From Chitinophaga filiformis (GTDB taxonomy: Bacteria; Bacteroidota; Bacteroidia; Chitinophagales; Chitinophagaceae), in the NCBI RefSeq assembly GCF_023100805.1, contig NZ_CP095855.1, positions 3,947,001-4,011,000 on the forward strand: a DNA stretch of 64,000 bases, read 5' to 3'. The translations under genes and the position numbers were made by a program. Under the pieces are notes generated by a model. The model did not search any database, was not told the origin of the DNA, and saw nothing but the letters and a program-made list of their open reading frames with translations. Shown here one piece after another: positions 20,079 through 39,448 of the stretch. The first letter of the stretch is position 1, and each line of letters starts with the position of its first letter.

Positions 20079-20711
20079 TTATTTTTTCCTGGCAACGGTT
20101 ACCCAACCTCCGCTGGTAGGTATTATTTCAATGTGTTTGATGTTGCAGCTGGCGTGCAGGTCGCGTATACTTTTTTCACTGTAATGATAAACAGAACAGG
20201 TGTAGCGATACCGGCGCAGCACCATTCTGAGCCCATTGCTGGGCCATGATATCACAAATGCCTTGTTGGTAACAGCGGCCATTTTTTTGATAAATGAGCG
20301 GGCATCTTCAATATAATCGAATACGCCTGCCGCTACTGATACATCGAAGGTACGGTTGTCCAGATTGTGTTTCATGAAATCGCCTTCGATGAATTTGCAA
20401 CGATCGGCAACACCTTCTGCGGCTGCATTTTTTCTTGCATATTCATTCATCGATTCTGCGAAATCAATTCCTAACAGGAAAGAAGCATCTGAGTTCTTTA
20501 ACCAGGTAACACTATTCACCCCCGGTCCCGAGCCTATGTCCAATATGGTAGGTCGATTGTACTCCTGGATCGTTTTTAAAGCCACTGCCGTACGGGTGTA
20601 AACCGCCTGCCTGAATAGTTTGTCGAAGAGCGAGGGTTTCTTGTAGTAATTGGCAAATAAGTCACTGCGGACATCCCAATACTGTTGGGCTGTGTGTATG
20701 TTTCTTGACAT
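20079..20711 (-). CDS. Class I SAM-dependent methyltransferase
   Basis: 210 residues. ILDIGSGPGVNSVTWL is motif I, LLGIDFAESMNEYARKN supplies the acidic ribose contact, and FDVSVAAGVFDYIED is motif II-III of a Methyltransf_11/25-type domain. The C-terminus is short and the substrate is not evident. Its start lies 50 bp inside the end of the deacetylase gene, on the same strand, so the two are translationally coupled. With its partner this suggests modification of a sugar or lipid-linked glycan. Confidence 0.88.
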   Translation of the reverse strand: MSRNIHTAQQYWDVRSDLFANYYKKPSLFDKLFRQAVYTRTAVALKTIQEYNRPTILDIGSGPGVNSVTWLKNSDASFLLGIDFAESMNEYARKNAAAEGVADRCKFIEGDFMKHNLDNRTFDVSVAAGVFDYIEDARSFIKKMAAVTNKAFVISWPSNGLRMVLRRYRYTCSVYHYSEKSIRDLHASCNIKHIEIIPTSGGWVTVARKK

Positions 20712-22954: not shown

Positions 22955-23137
22955 TTGTAAACCTTTTTTATGATTGTAATAATCAAGGCAACCCCAAATA
23001 CTATGCCCCAATTGCAGGGATACGAGGCAGATCCCCGAAGGGAATAGCCGGAAACAGCCGGGGAACCATATTGCGCAGGTATAGCATTATTGGGAGGGAT
23101 GTGTTATTTTGTAAAGATCACATTCATCACAATAACC

Positions 23138-23917
23138 ATGTTTCAACGTATTTTCAGGAACTTCATCCGCTTCATTCCCATTATGGCAGGCCTGTGCACC
23201 CTGCTGGCCATGCAACCTGTCAGGCCCCGTTTCCGCGTACTGGCCCTGGCGGAGAACGGCGGGCATCACATCGCCTATTCCAGGACAGCGAAAGTTTGGC
23301 TGGACAAACTGGCGGCCGACAGCGGTTTTGCTGTTGATTACATTGACAATACCGATAAGATAGACAGCGTTTTCCTGGCGCAATATCAGCTGTTCATCCA
23401 GCTGGACTATCCTCCCTATGCCTGGAAACCGGCAGCAGTAAAAGCATTTGAGGAATATATATCTGAAGGGAAAGGTGGCTGGATAGGGTTCCATCATGCT
23501 ACATTGCTGGGTGAGTTTGACGGATATGGTTTATGGCCCTGGTTTTATGACTTTATGGGGAAGATCCGCTTTAAGGACTACATCGCAGGTTTTGCGTCAG
23601 GGGATGTGCATGTTGAGGATGCTGCACATCCGGTACTGAAAGGCGTACCGGCGGTATTTAATGTAAAGACGGAAGAATGGTATACCTACGACAGGAGCCC
23701 GCGTCCCGATGTACATGTACTGGCCAGTGTGGACGAAAGCTCGTATAAACCTGCCTCTGGAAAGAAAATGGGCGACCATCCGGTTATATGGACAAATACG
23801 GCGTATAAGGCCCGGAACGTCTATATTTTCATGGGGCATTCGCCGGATCTGTTTGAGAACAAGGCCTATCTTACTTTATTCCGCAATGCCATTTTCTGGG
23901 CAGCTGCAAAGCCGTAA
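23138..23917 (+). CDS. ThuA-domain protein (exported or membrane-anchored)
   Basis: 259 residues from ATG 23138; the frame is open to 23090. One N-terminal hydrophobic segment (IRFIPIMAGLCTLLAM) serves as signal or anchor. The ThuA (trehalose-utilisation type, glutamine-amidotransferase-like) domain follows: RFRVLALAENGGHH, GKGGWIGFHHATL, HPVLKGVP and VIWTNTAYKARNVYIFMGHSPDLF. Family members are involved in sugar metabolism but the reaction is not established. It stands alone, followed by a 1.15-kb gene-free repeat island. Confidence 0.85.
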   Translation: MFQRIFRNFIRFIPIMAGLCTLLAMQPVRPRFRVLALAENGGHHIAYSRTAKVWLDKLAADSGFAVDYIDNTDKIDSVFLAQYQLFIQLDYPPYAWKPAAVKAFEEYISEGKGGWIGFHHATLLGEFDGYGLWPWFYDFMGKIRFKDYIAGFASGDVHVEDAAHPVLKGVPAVFNVKTEEWYTYDRSPRPDVHVLASVDESSYKPASGKKMGDHPVIWTNTAYKARNVYIFMGHSPDLFENKAYLTLFRNAIFWAAAKP

Positions 23918-28933: not shown

Positions 28934-28941
28934 TATATTTG
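28934..28941 (+). promoter_or_regulatory. TATATTTG promoter element before idi
   Basis: Exact TAnnTTTG, seven bases before the ATG at 28949. As with the divergent gene, the predicted transcript would have almost no leader. No clear -33 TTG is visible. Confidence 0.55.
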
Positions 28942-28948
28942 TCATTGT

Positions 28949-29464
28949 ATGAAAGCACAGGTTATATTGGTGAATGAGCTGGATCAGGAAACAGGATTGA
29001 TGGAGAAAATGGAGGCACACGAGAAAGGATTGCTTCACAGAGCTTTTTCCGTGTTTATTTTGAATGATCAGGGTGACATGCTGTTACAACAGCGGGCGCT
29101 CGATAAGTATCATTCCGGCGGTTTATGGACAAATGCCTGCTGTAGTCATCCGTTGCCCGGCGAAACCGTGGAAGCCGCAGCCCATCGGCGTCTTTCAGAA
29201 GAAATGGGATTTGACTGTCCCTTACGGGAACTATTCCAATTTACTTATCGCACAGAATTTGACAATGGTCTTATTGAACATGAATACGACCATGTATGGG
29301 CAGGCACTTACAACGGTGCTATTAACCCAGCCCCCGAAGAGGTGCATGCATATCAATATTTATCCGTAAACGAAATTATCAGGTTAATGGCAGAGGTGCC
29401 GGAGCAATTCACCAGCTGGTTCAGGCTGGCTTTTCCGAGAGTTATTGATCAATTAAGGGTCTGA
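28949..29464 (+). CDS. idi: Isopentenyl-diphosphate delta-isomerase, type I
   Basis: 171 residues from ATG 28949; the frame extends to 28889 but the added residues (MYLCQPEFVY) do not belong to the family. It has the Nudix-like fold with WTNACCSHP (catalytic cysteine at residue 65, metal-binding histidines) and AAAHRRLSEEMGF with the second catalytic/metal glutamates. It interconverts IPP and DMAPP. The terpene synthase follows after 32 bp on the same strand, so it probably boosts prenyl supply for that enzyme. Length is normal (E. coli Idi is 182). Confidence 0.93.
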   Translation: MKAQVILVNELDQETGLMEKMEAHEKGLLHRAFSVFILNDQGDMLLQQRALDKYHSGGLWTNACCSHPLPGETVEAAAHRRLSEEMGFDCPLRELFQFTYRTEFDNGLIEHEYDHVWAGTYNGAINPAPEEVHAYQYLSVNEIIRLMAEVPEQFTSWFRLAFPRVIDQLRV

Positions 29465-29496
29465 TGGCCCTATTCACCTCTTAACCATTTTTTACT

Positions 29497-30462
29497 ATGC
29501 CAACGATCACCTTGCCACGGATAGCCTATCCGTTCCCCTCTTCTATTAACCAATTTGTAACAGCAGCTCACGAACAGAACCGCCAATGGGTACAATCCTT
29601 CGGATTCATTACAAGCCCCGAAGCCCTCGGCCGGTTCGACAGATCACGCTTCGCCTGGCTTGCCGCCCGCGCCTTTCCAAATGCCAACTTTCATGAACTG
29701 TGCATCATTGCCAACTTCAATACCTGGTTGTTCATGCTGGACGACCAGTGCGACGAAGCACAACTGGGCAGGAAAGCGATTTCCCTGGAACAGGTTACAG
29801 ACGGCTTCATGAACATTCTGAAACATAACACACCTATTGACACAATTCTGGGCAGGAGTTTTACCGACATATGGGATCGTATGCAGGCCATTGGAGACAC
29901 TGCATGGCAGGCAAGATTTATCCGCAGTATGGAGGAGTACTTTACATCCTGCCATTGGGAAGCAGGCAACAGGGCCGCTGGTGTTACGCCTACCGTTGCA
30001 GAATACGTCACCATGCGCCCTTACACCGGAGCATTGTTCGCTGATGTGGAGGCCATAGAGATCATCGAAAAAGTATATCTGCCAGCCCACATCCTGCAGC
30101 ATTTTATCGTACAACGTCTTGTACTGGCCTGCAACAACATTGTGTGCTGGGCCAACGACATCTTCTCCTGCGCGAAGGAAGCCCGGCAGGGAGATGTACA
30201 CAACCTTGTTTTAGTACTCAGGCACGAACGTAATATCACTTTACAGGAAGCCGTAGATGAAACTGTGCGCATGCACAATGAAGAAGTAAAACTGTTTACT
30301 GCCCTCGAAAAATTGCTGCCTTCCTTTGGCGCTGAAATGGATAAGGAACTGGAAAGATTCCTGTCTGTACTGCGTTCCTGGATTACAGCCAATTATGACT
30401 GGAGCTTCCATGATACCGGCAGGTACCAGGTGAGAGAGGTCGAAGTGCTGGCAGAGAAATAG
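29497..30462 (+). CDS. Type I terpene synthase (terpene cyclase)
   Basis: 321 residues, all-alpha class I fold. The aspartate-rich motif LDDQCDE is at residues 81-87 (D82, D83, D86), the NSE triad N220-D221-x2-S224-x3-E228 is in [11 protein letters not shown], the pyrophosphate-sensor Arg174 lies exactly 46 residues before N220, and the terminal RY pair is R309-Y310. All ionisation residues are intact, so an active sesqui- or diterpene cyclase is expected. The product cannot be read from sequence. Chitinophaga pinensis is known to have bacterial terpene synthases of this type (dolabellane, cadinene and germacrene producers). No P450 or other tailoring gene is adjacent. Confidence 0.95.
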
Positions 30463-36517: not shown

Positions 36518-39448
36518 TTAAGTCAAAGCATCATACAGGATCTCTACAGGGTGCATAGATTTGCGGCCGGTACCGTCTTTAACCTGGTGCCTGCAACTGG
36601 TGCCCGGTGCTGCAATGATCGTTTCCTCTGCAGCATTACGTACCGCGGGGAACAATACCAGCTCACCGATCTGCATGGACAGCTCATAATGCTCTTTCTC
36701 ATATCCGAAAGAACCGGCCATACCGCAACAGCCGGAAGGAATGATCTCCACGGAATAGTTGGCAGGTAATGAGAGGATATTTTTACTGTGCAGTGGTGTG
36801 GACAATGCCTTTTGCTGACAATGACCATGCAGTTTGATCTGCCTTTTTTCGCTGGTAAAGAGCGTTGCAGGTATATTGCCGGCAGCGGCTTCCTTACTCA
36901 GGAATTCGTCTATCAGGAATACGTTGGGCGAAAGTTTTTTTGCCTTTTCACGCAGTTCCTCCCTCACCAGGTCAGGATATTCATCCCTGAAACTGAGAAT
37001 AGCAGATGGTTCTACACCCAACAAAGGCACATCGTTGCCGATCAGCTCACTAAAGATGCGAACGTTTTCTTCCGCAAAGTTGCGGGCTTTGCGCAGCAAT
37101 CCTTTTGACATCCAGGCGCGGGCGCTTTCAGGATGTTCGGTCATCTGTACATCATAGCCCAGTCGGTGCAACAGTTTAACGGCTTTGATACCGATATGCG
37201 TATCGTTGAAATTGGTGAACTCATCGCAGAAGAGATAAACCTTTTTCTTAACGGCGGATATTGGCGTCTTTTCGCGGGGCCACTGTTTCTTAAACCAGCT
37301 TCTGAGCGTGGTGGACTGCAACTCCGGCAGGGAGCGTTTCAGCGCGAAGCCGGAAGTTTTCTTAATCAGCTTGCCTGTAAGCGGCGTATTCACCATCCAG
37401 TTATAAATGCCCGGTGCTATAGTGGCAAGGCCATTCAGGCGGGTGAAATTACTGATCAGTTTTGCCCGGAACGGAACGCCGTTGGCATCGTGATAATGCT
37501 GGAGGAATTCCATTTTCAGCTTGGCCATGTCCACGTTGGAAGGACATTCTGATTTACAGCCTTTACAAGCCAGGCAGAGGTCCAGTACTTCGTAGATCTC
37601 TTTATGATCGAAACGGTTCTCTTTATTGGAATGTGTCAGGAACTCACGCAGGATGTTTGCCCTGGCACGTGTCGTATCTTTTTCGTTGCGGGTAGCCATA
37701 TAGCTGGGGCACATGGTACCGCCGCTTTTCTCGGTCTTACGGCAGTCGCCCGAGCCATTACATTGCTCCGCATGCTGGAGGATGGTCTGCTGCGGGAAGT
37801 GGAACACGGTCTTCAGCTGAGGGGCTTTCTGTCCGGGCTCATACCGCAGCATGCTGTTCATGCTGGGGGTATCAACGATCTTATTGGGATTGAAGATGTT
37901 TTCCGGGTCCCAGGTATATTTCAGCTCACGTAAGAGGGCATAGTTTTTCTCCCCGATCATCTGGCGGATGAATTCACCACGCAGGCGGCCGTCGCCATGT
38001 TCTCCGCTGAGTGAGCCTTTATATTTCTTTACAAGGGTGGCTATTTCTTCTGCGATCTTCCTGAACAGGAGATTACCTTCCGGCGTTTTCAGGTTGATGA
38101 TAGGGCGGAGGTGTATCTCACCGCTGCCGGCATGCGCATAGTGAACGCTGTAGAGGCCATATTGCTTCAGGATCTCGTTAAAATCGCGGATATAGGCCGG
38201 GAGGTCATAGATGTCGATAGCGGTGTCTTCGATCACGGGAACGGCCTTTTCGTCGCCTGGCAGGTTACTGAGCAATCCCAGGCCGGCTTTACGCAGCGTC
38301 CAGATCTTTTTGGTGTCGTCGCCAAACAGCAGGGGGAAGTGATATCCCAGTCCGGCTGCCTGCAATTCTGCAGTGAGGCGGTTGGCCACTTCGGTGATGG
38401 CATCCCGGTTGTCGCGGCAGAACTCCACTACGAGGATGGCACCGGGGTCGCCTTGTACGAAGAAGCGGTTTTTGCTCTGTTCAATATTGTCTTTGGTACA
38501 TTCCAGGATGTAGTGGTCGATCAGTTCACTGGCGCTGGGTTTATATTGCATGGCAATAATATTGGCGCGCAGGGATTCATCGATGCTGTTGAAATGTATG
38601 CAGAGCAACCCGGTTTCTTTGGGTGGCAGTGGAGATATGTTCAGTTTGATCTCTGTCAGGAAGGCCAGGGTACCTTCAGAACCGGCAATCAGTTTACAGA
38701 AGTTGAAGTCTTCTTTACCCGCAGTGAAGGGCGCTGTTTCCAGCAACAGGTCGATGGCATACCCCGTGTTACGGCGGGTAATGCTGGGTTTGGGAAATTC
38801 CCGGCGGATCTCTTCCTGGTTGCTGTGGTTGCCCAGCAGGGTACGGATCTGCCGGTATACGGTCGTTTCCAGGCGGCCGTCGTTCTTTTCGCAGCGGGCA
38901 TGGAACTCGTCTGTTGAAATGGTATTGAAGACCACGTCCGACCCATCGCTGAGGATGGCCTTTACTTCCAGAAGGTGTTCACGGGTACTGCCGTACACGA
39001 CGGAGTTGGAACCGCAGGAGTTATTGCCGACCATTCCCCCGATCATCGCCCTGTTGGCGGTAGAGGTTTCTGGTCCGAAGTAGAAGCCATAGGGTTTGAG
39101 GAACATGTTCAGCTCGTCTCTGATAACGCCTGGCTGCACCCTTACCCAATGTTCTTCTGTATTGATTTCCAATATTTTAGTGAAAGTTCTTGAAACATCT
39201 ACTATAATCCCGTTTCCAACTACCTGTCCTGCGAGAGAGGTACCGGCAGTACGGGGAATGAGCGAGGTTTTATTGGCGCGGGCGAAGGCGATCAATGTTT
39301 TGATATCCTGTTCATTTGCCGGAATCGCCACGGCCAGTGGCATTTCACGGTAGGCTGATGCATCGGTGGCGTATAGGGTACGCATGGTGTCATCGTCATA
39401 TAGTGTACCCGTCAGATCACGGGCCAATCCCCTAAGCTTATCTCGCAT
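36518..39448 (-). CDS. FAD-linked oxidase fused to Fe-S/CCG domains (D-2-hydroxyacid dehydrogenase, YdiJ-like)
   Basis: 976 residues. Residues about 35-450 are a PCMH-type FAD domain (PRTAGTSLAGQVVGNGIIVD, NNSCGSNSVVYGSTREH) and FAD-oxidase C domain. Residues about 540-650 carry ferredoxin-type clusters (CNGSGDCRKTEKSGGTMCPS and CLACKGCKSECP). The C-terminal part has CCG motifs (GHCQQKA, IPSGCCGMAGSFGYEKEHY). The layout is like E. coli YdiJ (D-2-hydroxyglutarate dehydrogenase) and D-lactate dehydrogenases that pass electrons to quinone. The exact acid is unknown. It is monocistronic. Confidence 0.92.
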   Translation of the reverse strand: MRDKLRGLARDLTGTLYDDDTMRTLYATDASAYREMPLAVAIPANEQDIKTLIAFARANKTSLIPRTAGTSLAGQVVGNGIIVDVSRTFTKILEINTEEHWVRVQPGVIRDELNMFLKPYGFYFGPETSTANRAMIGGMVGNNSCGSNSVVYGSTREHLLEVKAILSDGSDVVFNTISTDEFHARCEKNDGRLETTVYRQIRTLLGNHSNQEEIRREFPKPSITRRNTGYAIDLLLETAPFTAGKEDFNFCKLIAGSEGTLAFLTEIKLNISPLPPKETGLLCIHFNSIDESLRANIIAMQYKPSASELIDHYILECTKDNIEQSKNRFFVQGDPGAILVVEFCRDNRDAITEVANRLTAELQAAGLGYHFPLLFGDDTKKIWTLRKAGLGLLSNLPGDEKAVPVIEDTAIDIYDLPAYIRDFNEILKQYGLYSVHYAHAGSGEIHLRPIINLKTPEGNLLFRKIAEEIATLVKKYKGSLSGEHGDGRLRGEFIRQMIGEKNYALLRELKYTWDPENIFNPNKIVDTPSMNSMLRYEPGQKAPQLKTVFHFPQQTILQHAEQCNGSGDCRKTEKSGGTMCPSYMATRNEKDTTRARANILREFLTHSNKENRFDHKEIYEVLDLCLACKGCKSECPSNVDMAKLKMEFLQHYHDANGVPFRAKLISNFTRLNGLATIAPGIYNWMVNTPLTGKLIKKTSGFALKRSLPELQSTTLRSWFKKQWPREKTPISAVKKKVYLFCDEFTNFNDTHIGIKAVKLLHRLGYDVQMTEHPESARAWMSKGLLRKARNFAEENVRIFSELIGNDVPLLGVEPSAILSFRDEYPDLVREELREKAKKLSPNVFLIDEFLSKEAAAGNIPATLFTSEKRQIKLHGHCQQKALSTPLHSKNILSLPANYSVEIIPSGCCGMAGSFGYEKEHYELSMQIGELVLFPAVRNAAEETIIAAPGTSCRHQVKDGTGRKSMHPVEILYDALT

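Follow-up and report, generated by a model that had tools for sequence, protein, structure and literature searches.

Here, we identify the terpene synthase encoded directly downstream of idi in the window, i.e., the 64,000-nucleotide stretch of DNA from the soil bacterium Chitinophaga filiformis analyzed here, as very probably an orthologue of the characterized (-)-gamma-cadinene synthase of Chitinophaga pinensis and as an enzyme of the cadinane product class (probability about 0.9, from sequence comparison). As judged from this 89.1% identical orthologue, its product is probably (-)-gamma-cadinene, a fragrant hydrocarbon already known, formed from FPP. A preliminary description of the locus had proposed an unknown terpene and had named near identity to a characterized synthase as the finding that would speak against this proposal. 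That near identity was found, and the proposal is not supported. The synthase is of an already known kind, and the find is ordinary.

Results

Both genes lie on the forward strand of a genome of 8.26 Mb in a single contig. idi (28949..29464, with the ATG at 28949 and the TGA ending at 29464) encodes a type I isopentenyl-diphosphate delta-isomerase of 171 aa that exceeds the cut-offs of two equivalog models for type I IPP isomerase, NCBIfam NF002995 (169.7 bits against 127) and TIGR02150 (128.3 bits against 105.8). After an intergenic gap of 32 bp (29465..29496), the second gene (29497..30462) encodes a class I terpene synthase of 321 aa that matches Pfam Terpene_syn_C_2 with 175.6 bits (cut-off 23.7; E 1.4e-51) and contains DDQCD at residue 82, the Arg sensor R174, NDIFSCAKE at 220, and RY at 309. 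The earlier account of a complete class I synthase 32 bp after idi is, thus, confirmed in its coordinates, D-rich motif, NSE triad, and RY pair, and also in the placement of the Arg sensor 46 residues ahead of the NSE motif (220-174). This spacing is not special to the window synthase because Arg is found 46 residues before the NSE motif in 52/52 aligned synthase rows with a readable NSE motif; the 53rd row, L095, is a broken fragment without one.

The closest named relative of the window synthase is that of C. filiformis ZLX-1 (98%). Compared to the C. pinensis orthologues, dN/dS (NG86) is 0.062 for the synthase and 0.074 for idi, both values being rough at a dS of ~1. An AlphaFold2 model of the synthase based on 34 aligned sequences has a mean pLDDT of 90.2 and the alpha-helical class I terpene synthase fold. 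Because of this dN/dS value and this model, the synthase is not a chance open reading frame. The best PDB matches, by fold as well as by sequence, are structures of the (+)-T-muurolol synthase of Roseiflexus castenholzii, a species of another phylum; the top structure has 37% identity and TM scores of 0.89 (query) and 0.95 (target).

In the cited sections of the 2016 paper (PMC5082573), the (-)-gamma-cadinene synthase of C. pinensis DSM 2588 is WP_012792334, the motifs given for it are 82-DDQCD, R-174, 220-NDIFSCAKE, and 309-RY, and it converts FPP to (-)-gamma-cadinene with GPP and GGPP being unreactive. The motifs of the window synthase agree with these in every residue and position, as do those of the C. 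pinensis YS-16 protein. We found four synthase genes in the C. pinensis DSM 2588 genome (five match rows, two of which fall in one open frame). Among these, only the idi-linked gene encodes the combination DDQCD82/NDIFSCAKE220/RY309; the D-rich motifs of the other three are DDQFD, DDLLD, and DDIFD, and these three share 36-39% identity with the window protein. The idi-linked gene, which we equated with WP_012792334 via motif residues and numbering and on which the identity of 89.1% was measured, lies 37 bp downstream of idi and encodes, like the window gene, a protein of 321 aa. The two proteins differ at 35 of the 321 residues. None of these differences falls within residues 165-241, a stretch that contains the sensor and NSE helices, and two fall within the 28 residues from 65 to 92. 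In a phylogenetic tree, the window synthase falls among C. filiformis and related Chitinophaga, to which the C. pinensis rows are sister, and all of them lie inside one clade of 11 rows (support 99/97). Tree, synteny (L100), and identity, thus, agree in making the window synthase the orthologue of the C. pinensis DSM 2588 gene. Ten NCBIfam synthase equivalog models match the window protein, but all stay below their cut-offs; the highest-scoring one, (-)-delta-cadinene synthase, reaches 175 bits against a cut-off of 400. The product is nevertheless predictable from the published C. pinensis orthologue, whose motifs agree with those of the window protein in residues and numbering.

Two further characterized enzymes are useful for comparison. 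The R. castenholzii (+)-T-muurolol synthase (PDB 9hqd and others; WP_012119179 in the cited sections of PMC5082573) shares the fold, the DDQCD motif, and cadinane-type chemistry with the window enzyme; it differs in its low identity (37%) and in making an alcohol. The 18-hydroxydolabella-3,7-diene synthase (WP_012789469) is a class I enzyme from the same species as the orthologue; in the cited part of PMC5588592, it is a diterpene synthase in vitro, unlike the C. pinensis (-)-gamma-cadinene synthase.

All 79 sampled Chitinophaga genomes contain a match to the synthase (46-100% identity, one broken), with 81-100% identity in 21 genomes and 46-65% in the remainder. At G046:C1:4464672-4465394, the best match contains internal stop codons; this genome is 80% complete, and the stop codons reflect either decay or sequencing error. 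Counting idi as adjacent when it lies upstream of the synthase, on its strand, and with <600 bp separating the match ends, we found it directly ahead of the synthase in 54/79 genomes. Adjacency declines with synthase identity, from 21/21 genomes at ≥80% and 29/32 at 55-79% to 4/8 at 52-54% and 0/18 at <52%. In two of the 25 nonadjacent genomes (G072 and G026), no idi was found on the synthase contig. Among 30 named loci, the coding gap between idi and the synthase is 30-38 bp in 10 and 79-339 bp in 20, and the block order CpsB-GAF-idi-synthase-DUF is kept (CpsB in 29, GAF in 29, idi in 30, the synthase in 30, and DUF in 28). These named loci (L004-L033) and the sampled genomes share species and are, therefore, not independent samples.

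The tree comprises 50 genus rows (the 30 named loci, 18 other genus loci, the window, and C. pinensis DSM 2588) and 14 others. It resolves an idi-linked clade of 41 rows, three of them nonadjacent (support 100/98), and an unlinked clade of nine rows (100/99), and it requires two switches between the adjacent and nonadjacent states. The branch uniting the two clades has a support of 84/36 and was flagged as a meeting of long branches; this tree, therefore, does not establish a single origin of all genus best matches or the orthology of the unlinked clade. A metagenome-assembled genome labelled Flavihumibacter (L008) has a 93% identical synthase in the Chitinophaga gene order and is probably mislabelled. 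In another Chitinophagaceae genus (G079:C30:97988-108165), four distant synthase matches (26-28%) have idi among them, possibly representing an independent idi-synthase association.

Upstream of idi, TATATTTG (28934..28941, forward strand) matches TAnnTTTG and ends 7 bp before the start codon. TAnnTTTG is given as the -7 consensus of Bacteroides in the cited part of PMC7366714. Among 37 adjacent loci examined, which come from related species and are not 37 independent cases, 32 have this box with its end 6-8 bp from the idi start codon, and five (L011, L024, L031, L101, and L102) lack it; the probability of its occurring in that stretch by chance is ~0.01 per locus. Of the 40 bases upstream, 35 are identical between the window and C. 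pinensis, and only 7-13 between the window and each of seven other loci. Nevertheless, 7-9 of the nine bases of the box region are kept in six loci with the same spacing as the window; in L013 and L015, the box is displaced by one base, giving a score of 2 of 9. This position implies an idi transcript that would be near-leaderless, starting only a few bases from the ATG. In Bacteroides thetaiotaomicron, according to the cited part of PMC7366714, only ~3.7% of 5' UTRs are <10 nt. Ahead of the synthase, the 32-bp gap in the window is without a -7 box, and 36 of the 37 loci likewise have none between the two genes, even where the gap spans 170-339 bp.

A Pfam scan of 13 neighbors between 20.1 and 40.6 kb (ORF 23090-23917 left out) detected mostly sugar, signaling, transport, and protease genes. 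Their products include sugar-polymer proteins, a GAF protein and a response regulator, a symporter, and a subtilase; an inositol oxygenase and a DUF72 protein are also encoded, and one neighbor had no Pfam match. A SAM methyltransferase gene (20079-20711), which is next to a polysaccharide deacetylase gene, and a gene for an FAD-linked oxidase with iron-sulfur domains (36518-39448) lie 6-9 kb from the pair. None of these 13 neighbors is an obvious terpene-modifying gene, and the only P450 found genome-wide lies at 4.745 Mb, ~0.77 Mb from the pair (two profile matches in one 413-aa frame size, probably one gene). The suggestion that no tailoring genes lie alongside is, thus, supported for the neighbors scanned. 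The same genome has a second terpene locus (G000:C1:4745298-4757908; L084, L003, and L002), in which this P450 and two divergent synthases, at 4.749 and 4.757 Mb, adjoin each other within 13 kb; in the tree, both synthases have close relatives from the C. pinensis genome.

A single TIGR02150 match was found in this genome, which makes the idi of the pair its only type I idi found by profile search. No type II idi (TIGR02151) was found over the cut-off in the genome; the one weak match, with 22.1 bits against a cut-off of 281.3, was rejected. Within the genus, 78/79 genomes have a TIGR02150 match and 74/79 have exactly one. In a sample of 244 Chitinophagaceae genomes, 200 contain idi and 15, of which five are Chitinophaga, contain a match to the window synthase; all 15 are among the 200 with idi. 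If both counts cover the same draw, idi is present in 185 of the 229 family genomes that lack such a match. Two polyprenyl synthases were found in the window genome, at 5.006 and 7.845 Mb, far from the pair.

Discussion

Altogether, these data suggest a scenario in which IDI would interconvert IPP and DMAPP, and prenyl synthases encoded elsewhere in the genome would provide FPP. Class I chemistry consists of Mg2+-mediated substrate binding, ionization, cyclization, and deprotonation. In the window synthase, Mg2+ bound to the DDQCD motif and the NSE triad would mediate binding of FPP, which would then be ionized and cyclized to a cadinenyl cation, and loss of a proton would yield (-)-gamma-cadinene. 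IDI would aid the supply of FPP while also serving the other isoprenoid pathways of the cell.

Terpene synthase products can change with single substitutions, and an enzyme this closely related to the C. pinensis synthase might, therefore, make another sesquiterpene, e.g., another cadinane or muurolol. Among the 35 substitutions are I70T, ahead of the D-rich motif, and F304Y, close to the RY motif, both located in helices that may be near the active site. However, the stretch from residue 165 to 241 and all motifs are unchanged, and dN/dS is ~0.06, and we consider such a divergence in product very unlikely. Formation of (-)-gamma-cadinene is the reading we prefer.

The relationship between the two genes is a separate question, and the preliminary description had proposed that the pairing provides dedicated prenyl supply. 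An idi that exists to feed the synthase would fit the 32-bp gap, the same-strand adjacency in 54 genomes, and the locus of Chitinophaga costaii (L024), which retains the pair with CpsB, GAF, and DUF not found within 8 kb and which is also one of the loci lacking the -7 box. However, a dedicated cluster would be expected to carry an extra idi besides the housekeeping copy, and only a single type I idi was found in the genome. Moreover, idi was not found next to the synthase in 25 genomes, both prenyl synthases found are encoded elsewhere, and idi is a general gene of the family because many family genomes have it where no match to the synthase exists. Dedicated supply is, thus, not supported, and we regard it as very improbable. 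Adjacency itself is weak evidence for a functional pair because the entire CpsB-GAF-idi-synthase-DUF block is conserved. It is conceivable, albeit clearly the lesser possibility, that the two genes merely share this block and are expressed separately, an alternative that bears on the operon and not on the identity of the enzyme. In agreement with it, the surrounding block and the pair are conserved to a similar degree, and idi has moved out of the block in G043 and G061, where it lies ~5.7 kb off while the synthase remains between GAF and DUF. What argues against it is the lack of a -7 box before the synthase in all but one of the loci examined, including those with long gaps; this lack makes read-through from idi the simplest interpretation. 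We, therefore, favor a general-purpose idi that, as the promoter pattern suggests, is likely cotranscribed with the synthase.

In the cited part of the 2016 paper, the C. pinensis enzyme has no close relatives, with the nearest at 30% identity (PMC5082573), and the cited part of a 2025 paper describes two unexpressed relatives in Chitinophaga japonensis (PMC12723471). Judged by titles and abstract openings, none of the papers listed in our literature searches describes an idi-synthase pairing in Chitinophaga. Retention of the synthase across the genus and the idi promoter are, thus, mildly new additions.

A speculative and rather less probable reading is that a cadinane-type synthase may be part of the core of Chitinophaga (with an intact best match in 78/79 genomes), that in the larger clade it may be wired to idi under a single conserved, near-leaderless promoter, and that a volatile sesquiterpene would be made near-constitutively and have a general role, as a signal or in relation to the membrane, rather than being an optional secondary metabolite. 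The presence of matches in every genome sampled makes the biological role of this enzyme worth a knock-out.
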